A stretch of DNA of 38,786 bases, from the NCBI GenBank assembly GCA_030625565.1, contig DAOUQO010000003.1, positions 1 to 38,786 of the forward strand, given 5' to 3'. The notes under the pieces are model-generated. The model did no database searches. It was not told where the DNA came from and saw only the letters and a list, made by a program, of their open reading frames with translations. Source of the stretch: Aliiroseovarius sp. GTDB lineage: Bacteria; Pseudomonadota; Alphaproteobacteria; Rhodobacterales; Rhodobacteraceae. Below are positions 4,471 through 34,390 of the stretch, piece by piece. A program made the position numbers and the translations under genes. The stretch's first letter is position 1. Every line of letters begins with the position of its first letter.

Positions 4471-6027
4471 ATGACATTGAACCTTAACATGCCCGGACAA
4501 GAAGACTTAAAGCCACGCATTACCGTATTTGGTGTCGGTGGCGCCGGCGGGAACGCAGTCGACAACATGATCGAAATGAACCTTGATGGCGTCGAATTTG
4601 TCGTTGCCAATACCGATGCGCAAGCTTTGCAGCAGTCAAAATCTACTGCTAAAGTTCAAATGGGCGTCAAGGTAACCGAAGGTCTTGGTGCTGGTGCGCG
4701 ACCAATAGTTGGCGCCCAATCTGCGGAAGAAAGCATCGAAGAAATTGTTGAACATCTGGCTGGTGCACATATGTGCTTTATTACCGCGGGTATGGGTGGT
4801 GGCACAGGCACAGGTGCTGCCCCGATTATTGCCCAAGCGGCGCGCGAACTTGGTGTCCTGACCGTTGGTGTCGTCACTAAACCTTTCCAGTTCGAGGGCG
4901 GCAAACGTATGCGCCAAGCTGAAGAGGGCATTGAGGCACTTCAGAAAATGGTCGATACACTGATCATTATTCCAAACCAAAATCTATTTCGCCTGGCGAA
5001 TGAAAAAACCACTTTTACCGAAGCCTTTTCCATGGCTGATGATGTTCTTTACCAAGGTGTGAAGGGCGTTACAGATCTGATGGTTCGCCCCGGCCTTATT
5101 AACCTTGATTTTGCCGATGTCCGCGCCGTAATGGACGAAATGGGCAAGGCTATGATGGGCACAGGCGAAGGCGAAGGCGAAGATCGCGCTATTCAGGCAG
5201 CCGAGAAGGCCATCGCCAATCCATTGCTGGATGAAATATCCTTGGGTGGTGCGCGTGGCGTGCTGATCAATATTACTGGTGGCTATGATCTGACATTGTT
5301 TGAACTTGATGAGGCCGCAAACCGCATTCGCGAAGAGGTCGATCCAGAAGCAAACATTATTGTCGGGAGCACACTTGATACCAACATGGAAGGCGCGATG
5401 CGCGTTAGCGTTGTTGCAACCGGGATCGATGCTGCTGAAACTGTGCAAGATATTCCTGTGCCGCGCCGCCGGATGGGGGAACCTTTGGCCGCTATTGAGG
5501 ATCCAGTTGCTGCAGAGCCGGGCTTGTTTGATGCTACCGGTGCCGCTGCTGATGAACAGCTAGAAGGCCTGTTCCCAAGTCAAGAGGCCGGTCACGACCT
5601 GCCACCGCCTGCTTACCAGCATCGTGCCGCGCCTGATCATGTTGAAATGGCCCATGTTGTTGATGAATATGTTGATGAGGGTGGCGAAGTTACCCAATTC
5701 GTGGCCCCGCAGCCGCGCATGCCGGGCACCCCTTCTGATGAAGCAATGGCCCGCTTGCAGGCCGCTGTTCAAAGTCAGCCTGGTGCAGGAAGCCCCGCTT
5801 CAGCCCCATTGCAAAATCCTGTGTCACATGCGCCCCAAGAAAGTGAAAAATCACGGTTTGGGATTAACTCGTTAATAAATCGTATGACCGGGCATGACGC
5901 AACAGAAGCCCGCGCAGAATCTCCCCGCATGCAGCCTTCCGTACAGGGGCATGCGGTGGATCCGGTTGCTGATCCGCACGAAGAAAAGCTGGAAATCCCC
6001 GCTTTTTTGCGACGTCAAGCTAACTGA
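4471..6027 (+). CDS. ftsZ: Cell division protein FtsZ
   Basis: FtsZ is the tubulin-like GTPase that forms the cytokinetic Z ring. The 518-residue protein has the nucleotide-binding [13 protein letters not shown] (21-33), the tubulin signature [10 protein letters not shown] (109-118) and the T7-loop region [15 protein letters not shown] (211-225), where catalysis at the polymer interface occurs. After about residue 325 comes a roughly 180-residue Pro/Ala/Glu-rich disordered linker. The C-terminal peptide [10 protein letters not shown] is the docking site for FtsA and other partners. The long linker is typical of alphaproteobacteria. A promoter-containing gap precedes the gene and a strong intrinsic terminator follows, so it can be expressed on its own. 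Confidence 0.98.
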
Positions 6028-6046
6028 ATCTAACAAAACACTTTGA

Positions 6047-6079
6047 AAAAGGCCGGCATATGCTGGCCTTTTTTTTATT
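6047..6079 (+). terminator. Intrinsic terminator after ftsZ
   Basis: AAGGCCGGC pairs with GCTGGCCTT around an ATAT loop (one G-U pair), followed by an uninterrupted run of eight T (the last T pair of the stem plus six more). It starts about 20 bp after the ftsZ stop. It should separate the division cluster from lpxC. Confidence 0.88.
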
Positions 6080-6215
6080 TGTAACAGTATGTTAGCCGCG
6101 TCCTTGAACCAAATTGGCAAAAAATGGCCTGCTATTATTTGCCATGTTTCAAACGGTTACAAAGTTTGAGTTGAGCTTGAGCCACCACACCTTTACCCCT
6201 TGGTCACAATCAAAA

Positions 6216-6230
6216 CTAACACTTCGTTAA
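6216..6230 (+). promoter_or_regulatory. Weak CtrA-like site upstream of lpxC
   Basis: CTAA-N7-TTAA, one mismatch from the CtrA consensus TTAA-N7-TTAA, lies 25 bp before the lpxC start. In an AT-rich leader such a match is expected fairly often, so this is a low-confidence suggestion. No convincing sigma70 promoter was found in the 228-bp leader. Confidence 0.2.
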
Positions 6231-6255
6231 TAACAGACTGCTCTGGTTACCATTT

Positions 6256-7176
6256 ATGCAAAACACCGTATCAAAACCCGTCTTGTTTTCAGGCATTGGC
6301 CTGCATACTGGGCAGCCGGTGCGGATGAATGTTTTGCCAGCTTCTGCCGAATATGGAATTTGGTTTAAGCGGACTGATCTGCAAGCCGGGGATGCTTTGA
6401 TCGCAGCGCGGTGGGATAATGTTGAACCGTCACGCCTTTGTACCCTGATCAAGAATGAATCCGGTGCATCGGTTTCAACTATCGAACATATCATGGCCGC
6501 GCTTGCCGGGTGTGGCATTCATAATGCCCTTATCGAAATAGATGGCCCCGAAGTGCCAATTCTTGATGGCTCATCAGTTCGTTTTGTAAGCGGAATTCTG
6601 AATGCCGGCATTCGGCCGCTACATACCCCTGTTCGGGTGTTTGAGCTTTGCAAAACAGTTGAAGTTCATGAAGGCGAAGCTTGGGCGCGCCTTGAACCGG
6701 GCACCGGATTTGAAATCAGCTTTCATATCAATTTTGAGGCGGCGGCCATTGGCCGTCAGGATCGTATTTTGAATATGGCGAATGGGGCGTTTGTGCGTGA
6801 ACTTTCAACGTCACGTACTTTCTGCCGGCTTGAAGATGTTAACGCAATGCAGGCCGGTGGGCTGGCCCTTGGCGGGACCTATGAAAATGCGGTTGTTGTT
6901 GATGGCGCCAAAATTTTGTCACCAGGGGGATTGCGCCATTCAGATGAGCCAGTGCGCCACAAAATGCTGGATGCCTTGGGCGACTTGGCCTTGGCTGGCG
7001 CGCCGCTTATTGGTCACTTTACCGGCTATCGTGCTGGCCATGCCCTGACCAACCGCCTGTTGCGCGCCGTTTTTGCAGATTCTGCTGCAACACAAATGGT
7101 CACCTGCAATAGTGAAATGGCAAACCATTTACCTGGTGTTGGTGTAAGTCACCGTGATTTGCCGTTAATTGCCTAA
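6256..7176 (+). CDS. lpxC: UDP-3-O-acyl-N-acetylglucosamine deacetylase LpxC
   Basis: LpxC is the zinc-dependent, committed step of lipid A synthesis; it removes the N-acetyl group from UDP-3-O-acyl-GlcNAc in the cytoplasm. The Zn ligands are recognisable as His78 (in STIEHIMAAL), His235 and Asp239 (in RHKMLDALGDL). The general base Glu77 and the catalytic His262 (in YRAGHALTN) are also present, each a few residues offset from the E. coli positions. The 306 residues match the family length. In alphaproteobacteria lpxC commonly follows ftsZ, as here, but a terminator and a 228-bp leader indicate separate transcription. Confidence 0.97.
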   Translation: MQNTVSKPVLFSGIGLHTGQPVRMNVLPASAEYGIWFKRTDLQAGDALIAARWDNVEPSRLCTLIKNESGASVSTIEHIMAALAGCGIHNALIEIDGPEVPILDGSSVRFVSGILNAGIRPLHTPVRVFELCKTVEVHEGEAWARLEPGTGFEISFHINFEAAAIGRQDRILNMANGAFVRELSTSRTFCRLEDVNAMQAGGLALGGTYENAVVVDGAKILSPGGLRHSDEPVRHKMLDALGDLALAGAPLIGHFTGYRAGHALTNRLLRAVFADSAATQMVTCNSEMANHLPGVGVSHRDLPLIA

Positions 7177-7404: not shown

Positions 7405-8298
7405 ATGCAGCGCAGCAGGTTCAAAACACGAATTTTTCTTGGTGCAGCCATGGTTGCGCTTATGTCTGGCTGCTCGACTTTTGATAGTTTGGGTGGTGTT
7501 TCTGGCGGGTTGGCAGGTTTTTTTGGCGCAGGCGGTCGCGCCGATGAAAGACCTATTGAAGCATACACTGCCGAGGATATTTTCAAGCGCGGCGAATATG
7601 AACTAAGTCAGGGCAACCCCAAAGAAGCCGCTGGCTTTTTTGGCGAAGTTGAGCGGCTTTACCCCTATAGCGAATGGGCTAAACGTGGCCTGATCATGCA
7701 GGCATTTTCCTATCATAAAGAAGGTGAATATGTCGATGCGCGCGGGGCGGCACAACGGTTTCTTGATTTCTACCCAGCCGATGAAGATGCGGCATATGCG
7801 CAGTATCTTTTGGCGCTCAGCTACTATGATCAAATTGATGAAATTGGCCGTGATCAGGGGTTAACTTTTCAAGCATTACAAGCACTTCGCGTTGTGATTG
7901 AACGTTATCCAAATACTGAATATGCGCGCTCTGCTATCCTTAAATTCGATCTGGCATTCGATCATCTTGCTGCCAAGGAAATGGAAATTGGCCGTTATTA
8001 TCTGAAACGGGATCACTTTGCCTCAGCGGCAAACCGGTTTCGGGTTGTTGTGGAAAATTTCCAAACCACAAGCCATGTTGCGGAAGCCTTGCACCGTTTA
8101 GTTGAAAGCTATTTGTCGTTAGGCCTAACCGAAGAAGCCCAGACTGCGGGTGCCATCTTGGGGCATAATTTCCAGTCCAGTGAATGGTATGAAGAAAGCC
8201 ATAAATTGTTAACCGGCCGCGGGCTTGCGCTTGAGGTTAAAGGTGACAATTGGTTGTCAAATGTCTACCGCCAGCTGGTCAAGGGGGATTGGCTGTAA
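7405..8298 (+). CDS. bamD: Outer membrane assembly lipoprotein BamD
   Basis: BamD is the essential lipoprotein of the BAM complex that folds beta-barrel proteins into the outer membrane. The N-terminus is a lipoprotein signal peptide, with basic RSRFKTR, a hydrophobic stretch, and lipobox LMSGC giving lipidated Cys23. After a short Gly-rich linker come tetratricopeptide-type helical repeats from about residue 55 (the FKRGEYELSQGNPKEAAGFF segment is TPR-1). At 297 residues it is somewhat longer than E. coli BamD. It lies between lpxC and recN, a conserved alphaproteobacterial order, and supplies the machinery needed by LptD, encoded later in the window. Confidence 0.95.
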   Translation: MQRSRFKTRIFLGAAMVALMSGCSTFDSLGGVSGGLAGFFGAGGRADERPIEAYTAEDIFKRGEYELSQGNPKEAAGFFGEVERLYPYSEWAKRGLIMQAFSYHKEGEYVDARGAAQRFLDFYPADEDAAYAQYLLALSYYDQIDEIGRDQGLTFQALQALRVVIERYPNTEYARSAILKFDLAFDHLAAKEMEIGRYYLKRDHFASAANRFRVVVENFQTTSHVAEALHRLVESYLSLGLTEEAQTAGAILGHNFQSSEWYEESHKLLTGRGLALEVKGDNWLSNVYRQLVKGDWL

Positions 8299-8335
8299 CC
8301 CTGCGTGCGATCACGCAATACCCCGGATAATACCG

Positions 8336-10000
8336 ATGCTGCGCAGCCTTGAAATTCGCGATATGCTAATTATTGATCACTTGGTGTTTGAGCCGGGCGA
8401 TGAATTAAACGTGCTTACTGGCGAAACCGGCGCAGGTAAATCTATCTTACTTGATTCGCTTGGTTTTGTGCTGGGCTGGCGCGGGCGCAGTGACATGGTC
8501 CGTAAAGGTTGTGACCAAGGCGAGGTGGAGGCGGTTTTTCACCTTTCCCCGGATCACCCTGCGCGCGCTGTTTTGGATCAAGCGGGTATTTCGTGTGAAG
8601 ATGATGATCTGATCTTGCGGCGTGTGAACCAGCGTGATGGGCGCAAAAGTGCGTGGGCAAATGGGCGCCGTGCTTCGGGCGAAGTGCTGCGCGCGCTATC
8701 TGAAACCTTGGTTGAACTGCACGGCCAACAAGATGATCGTGGTCTGCTAAACCCCCGTGTTCACCGTAAATTACTGGATGAATTTGGCCAACTTGGGCCG
8801 CTGGAAACCAGCTGCCGGACAGGTTGGCGCGCGCTGGCCGAGGCTGCAAAAACCTTGGAAAATGCCCATGCCCGCCTTGCCAAGGTGCAGGCGGAAGAAG
8901 AATTTCTGCGCCATTCTGTGGCTGAGCTGGACGCGCTTGCGCCCGAGGCGGGGGAAGAGGCCACGTTGGATGCCCACCGCCGGTTGATGCAGGCCTCTGA
9001 ACGAATAAGCAGCGATATTGCTAAGGCATTTCAAACACTTGGATCCGGAGAAGGGGCCGAGGGCCGTATTTCAGATGCGCTACGCTGGCTTGAAGATGCG
9101 CAGGATCATGCGGGTGAAATTGTTGCTGCACCAATTGAAAACCTGCACAAGGTTCTGGATAATCTGGGCGATGCCTTGGCCGGAGTCGAAGCCGCGCTTC
9201 AAGCGCTCAGCTTTAACCCGCATGAATTGGAGCAGGCTGAAGAACGGCTTTTTGCGATTAGGGCCTTGGCGCGCAAACACAATGTCACGCCCGATGCTTT
9301 GGGTGATTTCGCGGCTGGTCTGCGTGACCGTCTTCGGGCGCTGGACCAAAGCGCCGAAGAAATTTCTGGGCTTGAGGCGGCGCAGGCGCAGGCGCTTGCC
9401 ACCTATGAAAAATCCGCAACCCGGCTGACTGCTGCACGTAAAAAAGCGGCCAAGGCGCTTGATAAGGCCATGGCGGGCGAACTTGCCCCACTGAAAATGG
9501 AGCGCGCGGTTTTTTTGACAGAAGTCAGTGCGGCGCAGCCTGGCCCTGAGGGGCAGGATAATGTTTGTTTTCAAGTGGCAACAAATGTTGGCGCTGCTTC
9601 TGGGCCGCTGAATAAAATTGCCTCGGGGGGCGAATTAAGCCGGTTTTTACTGGCGTTAAAGGTCTGTCTAACCCGCGATGCTGCTGGGTTAACCATGATT
9701 TTCGATGAGATTGACCGGGGCGTCGGAGGGGCAACGGCTGACGCCGTCGGGCGACGTCTGGCCGATTTGGCCGTCGGCGGGCAGGTGCTGGTTGTTACCC
9801 ATTCGCCGCAAGTTGCCGCATGCGGTGCAGTGCATTGGCAGGTGGCCAAACAGGTTAAGGACGGGGTGACGTTGTCAAATGTAACCGCGCTGTCCAAACT
9901 TGAGCGGGTTGATGAAATAGCCCGCATGTTGGCAGGCGATACCGTGACCGAAGCCGCGCGCGCTGCTGCTCGCGAACTTTTGAAAAAAGGACAGGGATGA
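8336..10000 (+). CDS. recN: DNA repair protein RecN
   Basis: RecN is an SMC-like ATPase that acts on double-strand breaks during RecA-dependent recombination. The 554-residue protein has Walker A GETGAGKS (29-36), a long coiled-coil middle, the ABC signature SGGELSRF (from about 430) and Walker B TMIFDEID (about 453-460), then a D-loop/H-loop region (VLVVTHSP). The ATG at 8336 begins the family-typical LRSLEIRDMLIIDHL; a longer reading frame starting inside bamD has no family similarity. It is 37 bp after bamD. Its stop overlaps the next gene by 4 bp (ATGA). No LexA box was recognised. Confidence 0.95.
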   Translation: MLRSLEIRDMLIIDHLVFEPGDELNVLTGETGAGKSILLDSLGFVLGWRGRSDMVRKGCDQGEVEAVFHLSPDHPARAVLDQAGISCEDDDLILRRVNQRDGRKSAWANGRRASGEVLRALSETLVELHGQQDDRGLLNPRVHRKLLDEFGQLGPLETSCRTGWRALAEAAKTLENAHARLAKVQAEEEFLRHSVAELDALAPEAGEEATLDAHRRLMQASERISSDIAKAFQTLGSGEGAEGRISDALRWLEDAQDHAGEIVAAPIENLHKVLDNLGDALAGVEAALQALSFNPHELEQAEERLFAIRALARKHNVTPDALGDFAAGLRDRLRALDQSAEEISGLEAAQAQALATYEKSATRLTAARKKAAKALDKAMAGELAPLKMERAVFLTEVSAAQPGPEGQDNVCFQVATNVGAASGPLNKIASGGELSRFLLALKVCLTRDAAGLTMIFDEIDRGVGGATADAVGRRLADLAVGGQVLVVTHSPQVAACGAVHWQVAKQVKDGVTLSNVTALSKLERVDEIARMLAGDTVTEAARAAARELLKKGQG

Positions 10001-10656
10001 TGCAACGGCAGCAGGTGGAAAAACAGGCATTTGGGTTTTTTATTTTTGCATTGATGGCCTTTGGCCTAATGCAAATTCTTGTTTTCATAACTAAAGGCGC
10101 GGCCTCACAAGAGGTGTTCGAGGTTTTTTCTGCCCCCCAAACCTATACCGAAGCCCTTGTAAATTCAGGAAATTCCTTGCGAATTATGCTGTTTTTGGAT
10201 GTGTTTTTCATGATTGGCTATGGCGGCGGCTTGTCCCTTACCGCTTATGCAAATGCGCCGCGCAATCCGGTTTTTGGCTGGGTCACCGGAATTGGTATTG
10301 CAGGCTTGCTTTTGTTAGATCTGTCAGAAAACCTGATCATGTTGCATGCGCTGGATTTGGCGCAGCTGGGGGGCACTTTGGATGCCGCCCAAATTGGTTG
10401 GCAGGTCGGAATTTCCGGGGCTAAATGGTTAATTGCTGCGCTTTCCGTCGTGGCATTGACGTTCATTTTACCACAAAACACCTTGTTTGAACGTCTTCTA
10501 GTGTGGTCTGCGCGCATCGCCTTGCCCATTGGCACCGGTCTGTTTGTAACAGGTGCATTTGATGCGCGCCTTTTGGGCGGATTGTTCATTCTTGTTGGCA
10601 TGGGCGGCGGATTTGGCCTGCTTGCCCTAACTATTTGGCAACGGCGCGCCCTATAA
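9997..10656 (+). CDS. Unknown six-helix membrane protein coupled to recN
   Basis: I do not recognise the family. The 219-residue product has about six hydrophobic segments (roughly 11-32, 61-85, 92-115, 138-158, 166-188 and 192-214). The first loop (33-60) is probably outside and relatively polar. There is no signal peptide, catalytic motif or cysteine cluster. A DLSENLIMLHAL segment carries charged residues in or next to helix 3. The start overlaps the recN stop as ATGA, implying co-translation; a second ATG at 10000 is an alternative start. It ends 14 bp from the convergent dehydrogenase gene. It occupies the place where I would expect ligA in many Rhodobacterales. Function is unknown. Confidence 0.8.
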   Translation: MMQRQQVEKQAFGFFIFALMAFGLMQILVFITKGAASQEVFEVFSAPQTYTEALVNSGNSLRIMLFLDVFFMIGYGGGLSLTAYANAPRNPVFGWVTGIGIAGLLLLDLSENLIMLHALDLAQLGGTLDAAQIGWQVGISGAKWLIAALSVVALTFILPQNTLFERLLVWSARIALPIGTGLFVTGAFDARLLGGLFILVGMGGGFGLLALTIWQRRAL

Positions 10657-30835: not shown

Positions 30836-31783
30836 ATGTCGGATGATTTTTTTATACCGGTTTCCGGAATGGATTTGCCGCGCTTTGCAGGGGTTCCAAC
30901 CTTTATGCGTCTGCCGCATGTTGAATTTGATCACCCCCGTTTTCAGGATGTTCAGGTTGGTCTGATTGGTGCCCCTTGGGATAGTGGCACCACCAATCGG
31001 CCGGGGCCGCGCCACGGGCCACGTCAGGTGCGCGATGCCTCAACCATGATACGTGCGCAAAACGGCATAACCGGCGTGCGGCCTTTTGAGGTTTTGAATT
31101 GCGCTGATTTGGGCGATGTTGCCCCGAACCCTGCTGATATAACTGACAGCCTTGCGCGGTTTACCGCCTTTTATACCAAGGTTAAGGCCGCAGGGATTAA
31201 GCCCCTGACAGCAGGCGGGGACCATCTGGTTAGCCTGCCGATTTTACGCGCTATGGCTGTGGATGCCCCGCTGGGCATGGTGCATTTTGATAGCCACACA
31301 GACCTGTTTCATTCCTATTTTGGCGGGCAGATGTACACCCATGGCACCCCCTTTCGCCGCGCGATCGAGGAAGAATTACTGGACCCGAAACGCGTGGTTC
31401 AAATCGGAATTCGCGGCACTGCCTATGATACCGAGGATCGTGATTTTGCCAAAGCAGTAGGCATTCGGATAATCCCGATTGAGGAATGTTTTCACCGTGG
31501 CTGGGCCGATGTGATGGCCGAGGCGCGTGAAATTGTTGGCACACAACCGGCCTATGTCAGCTATGACATCGACTTTGTTGATCCGGCTTTTGCGCCGGGT
31601 ACTGGCACGCCCGAAATTGGCGGGCCCAACAGTTTTCAGGCGTTGGAAGTGGTGCGCGCCTTGCAGGGGCTAAATATTGTCGGGGCCGATATGGTCGAGG
31701 TTTCACCGCCCTTTGACACCTCGGGCGCGACTGCATATCTGGGCGCGTCAGTGATGTTTGAACTGCTTTGCGTGATGGTCTAG
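30836..31783 (+). CDS. Agmatinase-family ureohydrolase
   Basis: This is a binuclear manganese hydrolase that cleaves a guanidino compound to urea plus amine. The 315-residue product shows all metal ligands: GGDH (127-130, His130), DSHTD (152-156) and SYDIDFVDP (242-250, Asp244/Asp246). The family includes agmatinase (SpeB), guanidinobutyrase, guanidinopropionase and the recently described guanidine hydrolases, and the sequence alone does not settle the substrate. No arginine decarboxylase or urease genes lie nearby. GAGAGG precedes the ATG. The last four bases overlap the end of the convergent radical SAM gene. Confidence 0.88.
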   Translation: MSDDFFIPVSGMDLPRFAGVPTFMRLPHVEFDHPRFQDVQVGLIGAPWDSGTTNRPGPRHGPRQVRDASTMIRAQNGITGVRPFEVLNCADLGDVAPNPADITDSLARFTAFYTKVKAAGIKPLTAGGDHLVSLPILRAMAVDAPLGMVHFDSHTDLFHSYFGGQMYTHGTPFRRAIEEELLDPKRVVQIGIRGTAYDTEDRDFAKAVGIRIIPIEECFHRGWADVMAEAREIVGTQPAYVSYDIDFVDPAFAPGTGTPEIGGPNSFQALEVVRALQGLNIVGADMVEVSPPFDTSGATAYLGASVMFELLCVMV

Positions 31784-32730
31784 GCCGAACAGCTTGCCCC
31801 GCCTAAAACGCAGAATTTTGCGCAATGTGCATGGTTCAGCGACACATCTTTTTCGGCCTCTTCTAGGGTCGCGCCCATTTCAAATTCGGGCGTATAGGCC
31901 AACAGGGTGCAGGCCAAAACGGCGGGGCTGTCGGCGCCTTTGCGTTTGACCACCATGCGCGCACTGGCACACATGATTTCATCAGGGGATTTGCCCAAAA
32001 TGCCCCAGCAGGATGTAGTGATTTCTGGCACCTCAATGGTTTCATCCATTTCAGGGAAAATTACAGTCATTGCAGGGTCTTGCGCATCAAGCTTAAAGTC
32101 ATTTTTTGCAAAAAATGCGCCGTACCCAGCCCGCGCTATGGTATCATCCTCTGCCCATAATGCACGCCCGGCAACGGCCATGCGAAAGCCGTTATCGCGC
32201 AAAAATTGCATGCCCTTTAAGGTTGAGGCAAAGCTACCAGCGCCACGAATACCATCGTGAAGCACGCCTTGCCAGTGATCCAAAGATACCCGTAACGTCA
32301 GTTTATCACCATATTCGGCCTGCAGCTTTAGCAGCCCTTCCTGCATGGATTTCCGCATCATCGGGCGCATGGCATTTGTTAGTACCAGCACGTCAAATCC
32401 GCGTGCCAAGGCGGCGTTCAGCATGGGGATTATTTGGGGGTTTAAAAACGGCTCTCCACCAGTGAAACCGATTTCGGTGACGGGCCACTTGCGGGCCGCC
32501 AACTGATCCAGATATGTGGTGACCTCGTCGGCCGTGATGTAGGCCAGCCGGTCGTTAATTGGCGAACTTTCGATATAGCAATTCATGCAAGTAATGTTGC
32601 ATAGCGTGCCGGTATTAAACCAAAGAATGCGCGGATTGCTAAGCGGCACACGCGCCCGCGCGCTGCCGTCTGCTGTCACTAACGGATCACTGAATTTGCC
32701 GATATTTGCCTTTGGTACCAATTGGTCCAT
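31780..32730 (-). CDS. Cysteine-rich radical SAM protein of unknown function
   Basis: This is a radical S-adenosylmethionine enzyme. The 316-residue product has the cluster motif CNITCMNC (Cys44, 48, 51), GGEPF (91-95) and a partial TIM barrel continuing through RVSLDHW (147-153). Six further cysteines lie in the C-terminal part (241, 254, 274, 303, 307, 314), the last three as C-x3-C-x6-C close to the end. That pattern suggests an auxiliary iron-sulfur cluster of the SPASM/twitch kind, though I cannot name the subfamily. No peptide substrate gene is seen beside it. It is divergent from zwf and overlaps the ureohydrolase gene tail-to-tail by 4 bp. Confidence 0.85.
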   Translation of the reverse strand: MDQLVPKANIGKFSDPLVTADGSARARVPLSNPRILWFNTGTLCNITCMNCYIESSPINDRLAYITADEVTTYLDQLAARKWPVTEIGFTGGEPFLNPQIIPMLNAALARGFDVLVLTNAMRPMMRKSMQEGLLKLQAEYGDKLTLRVSLDHWQGVLHDGIRGAGSFASTLKGMQFLRDNGFRMAVAGRALWAEDDTIARAGYGAFFAKNDFKLDAQDPAMTVIFPEMDETIEVPEITTSCWGILGKSPDEIMCASARMVVKRKGADSPAVLACTLLAYTPEFEMGATLEEAEKDVSLNHAHCAKFCVLGGASCSA

Positions 32731-32923: not shown

Positions 32924-34390
32924 ATGGTTTCACGCGTCATTCCGGTTGAGCCCTTTGATCTGGTCATTTTCGGTGGCACAGGTGACCTTGCCCGCCGTAA
33001 AATCCTGCCCAGTTTGTTTCGTCGTTTTTGTGATGGGCAAATGCCTGATCAGGCGCGCATAATCGGCGCGGCACGTTCGGATTTAACTGTATCGCAATAT
33101 CGTGACCTGATTGGCCAAGCGCTGCAAGATGCCCTTGATAAATGCGACTGTTCCGATGAAAATTTGGCGGCCTTTCTGGCGTGCCTAAACTACATCCCCA
33201 TTGATGCAAAGGGCACTAACGGCTGGGATGATCTGGCGGCAATAATGCGCCCGGATGTGGTGCAGGCCTATTACTTTTCAGTTGGGCCCAGCCTGTTTGG
33301 CGACATCGCCAAGCGTTTGAAAAAGCACAAGATTGCAGGCAAGGACGCGCGCATTGTGGTTGAAAAACCCTTTGGCCATGACCTGCCTTCTGCCCGCGAT
33401 TTGAATGCGACATTGGCCAAGCACTTTGAGGAACATTGTATCTATCGGATTGACCATTATCTGGGCAAGGAAACAGTGCAAAACCTGATGGCGCTACGCT
33501 TTGGTAATATGCTGTTTGAACCGCTTTGGAATGCGCAATATGTTGACCATGTCCAGATCACTGTTGCCGAAGATATCGGCGTGGACGGGCGTGGGGCGTA
33601 TTACGATAATTCCGGTGCGATGCGTGATATGGTGCAGAACCATTTGATGCAACTTTTGTGCCTGACCGCGATGGAGCCCCCTTCAAAATTTGACCCCGAC
33701 GCCGTGCGCGATGAAAAGCTTAAGGTCATTCGCGCGCTTGAGGCCCCGCATCCCAGCGATATCGTGCGCGGGCAATACTTAGCGAGCGAAGATAAGACCT
33801 CATACCTTGAAGATTGCGAAAATCCCGACAGCAAAACCGAAAGCTTCATTGCCCTGCGCCTGCATATTGCCAATTGGCGCTGGAATGGCACGCCGTTTTA
33901 TTTGCGCACCGGCAAGCGCCTGAAATCGCGGATGAGCGAAATTGTTATCCAGTTCAAAGAACCGCCGCATTCGATATTCGAAAGCGCGCCGGGTCAAGGT
34001 GGCGGGCAGGGGGCGAATGAACTTTCGATCCGCCTGCAACCTGACGAAGGCATGGATTTGAAGGTCACTATAAAAGAGCCGGGCATGGGCGGCATGCGCC
34101 TGATCGACGTGCCGCTGGACATGACTTTTGCCGAGGCCTTGGGTGAACAGGCCACCGATGCGCCCGATGCCTATGAACGCCTGATTATGGATGTCATTCG
34201 TGGCAACCAAACCCTGTTCATGCGCGGCGACGAAGTCGAAGCCGCCTGGGCCTGGACTGATCCAATTATTGACACTTGGAAGGCAGCGGATGAACGCCCT
34301 TACACCTATGAAACAGGATCAACCGGACCAGAAGAGGCCCTGATCCTTATGCATCAAGACGGGCGTCGCTGGAGGGATCTAAAGGTATGA
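32924..34390 (+). CDS. zwf: Glucose-6-phosphate 1-dehydrogenase
   Basis: Zwf oxidises glucose-6-phosphate to 6-phosphogluconolactone with NAD(P), feeding the pentose phosphate and Entner-Doudoroff routes. The 488-residue product has the dinucleotide motif GGTGDLARRK (17-26), EKPFG (147-151) and the substrate/catalytic signature RIDHYLGKE (175-183). GAGAGG lies a few bases before the ATG. Its stop overlaps pgl by 4 bp (ATGA). In marine Rhodobacterales glucose is mostly degraded by Entner-Doudoroff; edd and eda are not in the window. Confidence 0.98.
   Translation: MVSRVIPVEPFDLVIFGGTGDLARRKILPSLFRRFCDGQMPDQARIIGAARSDLTVSQYRDLIGQALQDALDKCDCSDENLAAFLACLNYIPIDAKGTNGWDDLAAIMRPDVVQAYYFSVGPSLFGDIAKRLKKHKIAGKDARIVVEKPFGHDLPSARDLNATLAKHFEEHCIYRIDHYLGKETVQNLMALRFGNMLFEPLWNAQYVDHVQITVAEDIGVDGRGAYYDNSGAMRDMVQNHLMQLLCLTAMEPPSKFDPDAVRDEKLKVIRALEAPHPSDIVRGQYLASEDKTSYLEDCENPDSKTESFIALRLHIANWRWNGTPFYLRTGKRLKSRMSEIVIQFKEPPHSIFESAPGQGGGQGANELSIRLQPDEGMDLKVTIKEPGMGGMRLIDVPLDMTFAEALGEQATDAPDAYERLIMDVIRGNQTLFMRGDEVEAAWAWTDPIIDTWKAADERPYTYETGSTGPEEALILMHQDGRRWRDLKV

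Follow-up and report, generated by a model that had tools for sequence, protein, structure and literature searches.

The radical SAM gene and its neighbours

The DNA analysed here, referred to as the window, is a 38,786 nt stretch from Aliiroseovarius sp. (contig DAOUQO010000003.1). It includes a gene for a radical SAM protein that lies between an agmatinase-like gene and zwf (Table 1). The radical SAM gene and the agmatinase-like gene overlap by 4 bases at their stop codons (31780–31783). Beside zwf are genes that we take to be pgl and pgi, named by reading and not by search. As zwf-pgl-pgi is divergent from the radical SAM gene and the agmatinase-like gene is convergent, an operon at this locus was ruled out. 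A first-pass annotation had listed a CX3CX2C cluster in the protein and further cysteines at 241, 254, 274, 303, 307 and 314. These positions are exact in the open reading frame, where the cluster is formed by Cys44, 48 and 51.

Table 1. Features of the radical SAM locus, with positions in the window
Feature	Position	Strand	Basis or remark
Radical SAM protein gene, unnamed family	31780..32730	minus	ORF, 316 aa, ATG start
CX3CX2C radical SAM cluster motif, residues 44–51 (Cys44, 48, 51)	32578..32601	minus	Sequence; invariant in alignment
Cys241, Cys254, Cys274	31909..32010	minus	Conservation; Cys254 and Cys274 flank a predicted hairpin (strands 257–261 and 270–273; model)
C-terminal CX3CX6C (Cys303, 307, 314)	31789..31824	minus	Resembles the ArsS ending CX2CX7C
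Ureohydrolase (agmatinase-like) gene, convergent neighbour, outside the proposed system	30836..31783	plus	Profile matches
Glucose-6-phosphate dehydrogenase gene (zwf), divergent neighbour, outside the proposed system	32924..34390	plus	Pfam; at this place in 18/78 loci

Assignment by curated models

The same annotation had found no recognised subfamily for the protein, and profile searches bear this out, as no curated family accepts it. In Pfam, Radical_SAM and, marginally, Fer4_12 were above cut-off, and SPASM was absent from the matches at E ≤ 1. The best 25 of the 61 NCBIfam matches were weak, confined to the radical SAM core and nowhere near cut-off; they are led by Rv1681 (NF049973; 88 bits, cut-off 380), AlbA (56.5 bits, cut-off 850) and ArsS (TIGR04167; 55 bits, cut-off 300). 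A true Rv1681 member, encoded at locus L185, scored 536 bits on NF049973. Two distant members of the family described below scored 48 and 50 bits on the ArsS model. PF12345 (DUF3641) had no match in the window protein at E ≤ 1, nor in the two distant members at E ≤ 0.01, and gave 185 bits with an ArsS run alongside them. A prokaryotic viperin was ruled out (NF038283, 39 bits against a cut-off of 180), and the PADLOC viperin model pVip gave 41 bits over residues 43–129, in the core only.

Judged by sequence, the window protein is a member of a distinct, unnamed and widespread radical SAM family. A literature search, whose coverage mostly excluded subscription journals, returned no paper recognisable as describing it.

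Distribution of the family

The family was found in 115 of the 385 sampled genomes of the window's class (match E ≤ 1e-20), or about 30%. Most of these matches are full-length and 46–70% identical to the window protein, with the match in one genome (G140) at 36%. When the phylum was sampled, 37 of 398 genomes gave a match, and seven of these belong to other classes (33–38% identity). The other class that holds this distant branch is probably the Gammaproteobacteria, since a relative of similar distance (32% identity) sits on a Marinobacter plasmid. On the Marinobacter adhaerens plasmid pHP-187 (L182, about 6001–6874), a distant copy is split over two frames and is unannotated in the gene table.

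Family holders include near-complete single-contig genomes of 1.2–1.3 Mb (G122, G399 and G321). The gene adjoins a VTT/TVP38-type gene in all three (L092, L093 and L094), and each genome has a weak TIGR04283 match and no ArsM match that we could find.

Cysteine conservation and predicted fold

We aligned 118 distinct sequences, made up of 112 close members (at least 44% identity, window protein included) and six distant members (32–35% identity). Cys44, 48, 51, 241 and 254 are present in all 112 close members and Cys274, 303 and 307 in 111, with one gap; Cys314 is present in 111, with one replacement by R. All nine cysteines are found in the six distant members. Cysteines 241–314, on whose conservation among orthologues the first-pass proposal of auxiliary clusters depended, are therefore near-invariant in the 118 sequences.

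An AlphaFold model built from an 18-sequence alignment had a mean pLDDT of 79.1 and a pTM of 0.82, with residues 1–4, 42–61 and 311–316 below 50. Its best PDB matches in Foldseek were SuiB and SkfB. In VIA-align, SuiB (Z 16.3, rmsd 3.6, 228 aligned), BlsE (Z 16.3, rmsd 3.8, 244 aligned), PqqE (Z 15.3), MoaA (Z 15.1) and a viperin (Z 14.9) scored so closely that the fold comparison singles out no one family. The predicted fold resembles those of the SPASM/twitch enzymes SuiB, SkfB, BlsE, PqqE and MoaA over about residues 29–308. In twitch and SPASM domains the first pair of auxiliary-cluster cysteines is placed around a hairpin of the kind flanked here by Cys254 and Cys274, and the modelled hairpin would thus match the position of that pair.

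The extra cysteines had been taken to suggest one or more auxiliary iron-sulfur clusters of the sort found in SPASM enzymes that modify peptides or carbohydrates. Because these cysteines are conserved and the C-terminal part of the model aligns with SuiB, BlsE, SkfB, PqqE and MoaA, it is plausible that the protein has an auxiliary cluster, or more than one; peptide modification did not find the same support. The protein differs from SPASM enzymes in its lack of a Pfam SPASM match and in its closing cysteines, which are spaced CX3CX6C against the CX2CX5CX3C of SPASM, and the ending had rightly been called non-standard.

Genomic neighbourhoods

Neighbouring open reading frames were called and clustered in 78 loci, and a later HMM search covered the 6.5 kb around the gene on either side in 140 loci. 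In 18 of the 78 the gene is next to zwf and the genes that come after it, and all 18 come, judged by origin, from the window's own taxonomic family, where close homologues are named Rhodobacteraceae or Paracoccaceae. Many other members lie near what are presumably metZ, apaG, folE and trkH, names read from cluster representatives rather than searched. Both kinds of neighbourhood look like housekeeping synteny, and an ApaG-like gene, used as a control, was near 46 of the 140 loci.

Neighbours resembling arsenosugar genes were found at four distant loci (L086, L088, L089 and L091) and seven close ones (L097, L098, L111, L116, L120, L121 and L143). They include TIGR04282 and TIGR04283, for which the arsenosugar label is NCBI naming and not one drawn from a test known to us. 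Four of these loci were scanned with the curated models. At L111, both TIGR04282 (176.6 bits) and TIGR04283 (276.6 bits) are above cut-off, and ArsM scored 203. L143 has TIGR04282 (170.9) and MTAP (NF006492; 462, cut-off 437) above cut-off and TIGR04283 (161) and ArsM (151) below. The distant locus L086 has TIGR04283 at 196.8 bits (cut-off 182), TIGR04282 at 101.5 (cut-off 134) and ArsM (NF008823) at 181 (cut-off 263). In L116, consecutive genes match TIGR04282 (126.5), TIGR04283 (130.8), MTAP (NF006492; 289.5) and ArsM (202), all below cut-off.

Over the 140 loci, TIGR04282 was found 19 times, TIGR04283 16, an FAD oxidoreductase 13, VTT/TVP38 nine, a metallophosphoesterase nine, ArsM eight, MTAP six and DUF547 three; these counts are descriptive, as some of the proteins behind the HMMs came from these very loci and the score thresholds were set by hand. 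Of six kinds of neighbour (ArsM, MTAP, TIGR04282, TIGR04283, VTT and the FAD oxidoreductase), 29 loci have at least one, 22 at least two, and 111, the window's own locus among them, none. Clustering with arsenosugar genes, as a mark of ArsS-type membership, was thus seen in part of the loci and not in the window's own.

A FastTree tree was made from 139 of the 140 loci, the frame-broken copy L182 being left out. Linkage to ArsM, MTAP, TIGR04282 or TIGR04283 is found in 19 of the 139 and requires a minimum of 11 changes on the tree; therefore it has been gained or lost repeatedly. Linked genes of the arsenosugar type occur in varied orders and orientations. The nine loci with a metallophosphoesterase (L122, L136, L139, L140, L181, L191, L215, L222 and L237) require at least nine changes, which suggests that the Metallophos_2 phosphoesterase is a recurrent functional partner. 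In L122, a single open reading frame (8157–10310, minus strand) contains both Metallophos_2 and Radical_SAM.

At L181, on plasmid p546-1 of Roseomonas haemaphysalidis, the gene is preceded by TIGR04282 and another radical SAM gene, for a 459 aa protein that scored best on TrsS (100 of 490 bits), and followed by genes for a phosphonate-type transporter (PhnD, PhnE and an ATPase). The Rv1681-family gene at L185, on a Mycolicibacterium plasmid, also adjoins a PhnD-type gene.

The first-pass annotation had pointed to tiny open reading frames near orthologues as possible peptide substrates. We clustered 3187 open reading frames of 20–90 aa from around the 140 loci and, in a selective reading of the clusters from which a rare or lineage-specific peptide could escape, noticed none that formed a conserved gene in its own right. 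The upstream stretch searched reaches into the radical SAM gene, and the widest clusters were taken for frames antisense to, or overlapping, the gene and its neighbours, and one for a tRNA derivative. A peptide substrate is unlikely.

Co-occurrence across genomes

TIGR04283 was found in 149 of the 385 class genomes (E ≤ 1e-25), and in 125 of them it is above the curated cut-off. It is present in 111 of the 115 genomes that have the radical SAM family and in 38 of the 270 that do not, with neither in 232 (Fisher p 1e-57, phylogeny ignored). Only four genomes (G060, G219, G252 and G311) have the family without TIGR04283. To limit the effect of shared ancestry, the test was also made within the window's own taxonomic family (51 genomes), where TIGR04283 is present in 23 of the 24 genomes with the radical SAM family and 2 of the 27 without it (Fisher 3e-11). 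Of the 38 class genomes in which TIGR04283 occurs without the family, 36 also lack canonical ArsS. TIGR04283 must therefore have other partners or roles, and its arsenosugar label may be too narrow.

The window genome carries, on other contigs, an ArsM of the linked type (C239, 375 aa) that is 65% identical to that of the cluster in G140 (L091), together with TIGR04283 (C98) and, both above cut-off, TIGR04282 (C260) and MTAP (C205). No ArsS match was found in this genome. As MTAP is common in nucleoside salvage, its presence says little.

ArsM matches counted as strong (E below 1e-90 against the ArsM of the window genome) were found in 6 of 40 family-positive genomes and 0 of 40 others, both sets hand-picked and 21 of the 40 others having TIGR04283. 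Within the window's own taxonomic family the corresponding figures are 7/24 and 0/27. Merged without repeats, these come to 12/61 against 0/65 (Fisher 9e-5), a count for which the cut was chosen after the scores had been seen and from which seven family holders of other classes are left out; four of those seven are positive for this ArsM. Looser criteria gave 12/40 against 4/40 (NF008823 at E ≤ 1e-25) and 9/40 against 3/40 (E ≤ 1e-15 to the ArsM of the window genome). ArsM of the linked type goes with the family, though most holders are without it: a strong match is absent from 49 of the 61 family-positive genomes tested, and four of five genomes of the window's genus (G001–G004) have the family and TIGR04283 and no ArsM match. 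ArsM as a universal partner is ruled out by the 12 of 61 holders and the weak looser contrasts. Holders that lack ArsM may obtain methylated arsenic in some other way or, as a matching ArsM is found in only those 12, arsenic may not be the usual acceptor.

Comparison with ArsS and other radical SAM families

Canonical ArsS was found in only 2 of the 385 class genomes (E ≤ 1e-30). Both are without the window's family and both have TIGR04283. The two ArsS genes are preceded by an FAD oxidoreductase gene and followed by MTAP, with TIGR04283 next in L146. On a Pseudanabaena plasmid the order is TVP38, mercuric reductase, ArsM, TVP38 and ArsS; on a Hymenobacter plasmid TIGR04283 is accompanied by an epimerase/dehydratase, an SDR protein and ArsS, and a DUF547 protein is encoded close by. 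The company shared with ArsS comprises the FAD oxidoreductase, MTAP, TIGR04283, ArsM and VTT/TVP38, and in the linked loci the family occupies the ArsS position.

When a profile of 20 family members was compared with three ArsS proteins, they matched over 263 columns (probability 98.5, E 2e-15) with the closing cysteines in register. The same family profile matched an Rv1681-family protein (1.2e-28), MftC (5e-18) and NirJ (2e-14) in the core only. On these scores, the radical SAM core carries most of the full-length ArsS match, and that the core is nearer to Rv1681 and MftC than to ArsS counts against an ArsS reading. The Rv1681 family (NF049973) has the closest core by profile; the one member examined (L185) lacks the C-terminal cysteine array. 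With C-terminal parts alone, the match to a four-sequence ArsS profile had an E of 6.6e-5 (28 columns, probability 64), or 0.0082 with the distant members alone. The controls, each a single sequence, gave 0.026 (MftC), 0.071 (Rv1681 family), 0.62 (the other radical SAM protein encoded at L181) and 0.65 (NirJ). These values are suggestive, short of proof, of a cysteine domain shared with ArsS.

The CX3CX2C motif is common to both proteins and the closing cysteines are similar (CX2CX7C in ArsS, CX3CX6C here). However, the window's family has the extra Cys241, is without PF12345 and has few residues identical to those of ArsS outside the motifs. A sequence search of the PDB found no ArsS structure.

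Possible function

Radical SAM enzymes adenosylate arsenic in the synthesis of oxo-arsenosugars, and in that of arsinothricin a radical SAM enzyme transfers an aminocarboxypropyl group, according to the passages of PMC12159101 that treat them. As the family fills the place of ArsS in linked loci, arsenosugars, or chemically similar compounds, are possibly made through an enzyme that has not been described. Our leading interpretation, to which we give slightly less than an even chance (about 0.48), is that the family is a functional analogue of ArsS that adds a 5'-deoxyadenosyl group to a methylated arsenical. It is probably also a distant relative of ArsS. In favour are the linked loci, the similar gene set around canonical ArsS, the pairing with TIGR04283, the rarity of ArsS in the class, the strict ArsM contrast, the ArsM, TIGR04283, TIGR04282 and MTAP of the window genome and the ArsS-like closing cysteines. 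Weighing against it, besides the core scores, are the 49 of 61 holders with no strong ArsM match, the 111 of 140 loci with none of the six kinds of neighbour, the 36 class genomes with TIGR04283 and neither radical SAM gene, and the fall of the C-terminal match to 0.0082 when only distant members are used.

In such a pathway, the site cluster would cleave SAM to a 5'-deoxyadenosyl radical, which would combine with a trivalent methylated arsenical to give a 5'-deoxyadenosyl-arsenic compound. The acceptor in the known arsenosugar pathway is dimethylarsinous acid. Adenine would next be released by an MTAP-type phosphorylase, after which TIGR04282 (CofC-like) and TIGR04283 would transfer the pentose with its arsenic to glycerol or a lipid. 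A twitch-like auxiliary cluster domain would be made up by the six cysteines of the C-terminal part. We infer the substrate, radical chemistry, order of steps and number of clusters from the company of the gene and by analogy with known arsenosugar chemistry.

The same chemistry could be directed at another acceptor. In most holders the 5'-deoxyadenosyl group would then go onto something other than arsenic and TIGR04282 and TIGR04283 would build a pentosyl-glycerol or glycolipid, with arsenic a side branch where ArsM is present. We consider this less likely, though credible: the family pairs with TIGR04283 far more than with ArsM, the gene persists in the streamlined 1.2–1.3 Mb genomes alongside a weak TIGR04283 match and with no ArsM found, and at one locus the gene has a phosphonate-type transporter after it. 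Against this, no gene for an alternative acceptor was identified, and among the sampled genomes a strong ArsM match was confined to those with the family. Put in its broadest form, this would make the enzyme, TIGR04282 and TIGR04283 an undescribed adenosyl-transfer pathway, present in about 30% of sampled class genomes including those of 1.2 Mb, to heteroatom-bearing deoxypentose glycerols or lipids, with the usual acceptor not arsenic and arsenosugars a specialised branch that recruited ArsM; that we think more doubtful still.

It is improbable that the function of the family is unrelated and that it travels with TIGR04283 by mostly vertical inheritance, the clusters being due to chance or local. 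Plain synteny is common, as the ApaG-like gene illustrates, and the class-wide Fisher test takes no account of phylogeny. However, the pairing with TIGR04283 persists inside one taxonomic family, and the linkage, found in varied orders and orientations, implies 11 or more changes across the tree.

Chemistry like that of ArsL, in which the 3-amino-3-carboxypropyl group of SAM would be placed on arsenic and a neighbouring MTAP would clear methylthioadenosine, is very improbable. ArsL is likewise a radical SAM enzyme working with an ArsM, the family has ArsM and MTAP neighbours, and the ArsM proteins at linked loci reach 152–191 of 500 bits on the arsinothricin ArsM model as well. Glycosyltransferase partners, though, have no role in such a product, and the passages of PMC8552651 that describe ArsL, by which the two were compared, set it apart as a 428 aa protein with only three conserved cysteines, from an arsQML context, that pairs with ArsQ. 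Least probable of all is a peptide (RiPP) maturase with auxiliary clusters, for while the predicted fold is close to those of SuiB and SkfB, the neighbours are small-molecule enzymes and no conserved small open reading frame was noticed beside the 140 loci.

If the family is indeed an analogue of ArsS, arsenosugar-type chemistry in many Alphaproteobacteria would begin with an enzyme left unnamed by every annotation model searched here, and the canonical form, ArsS, found in 2 of 385 genomes, would be the rare one in this class. The expected sources of bacterial arsenosugars and arsenolipids would change accordingly. The family would then represent a second, sequence-distant way of forming a carbon-arsenic bond by radical adenosylation, or a sister reaction on a different acceptor.
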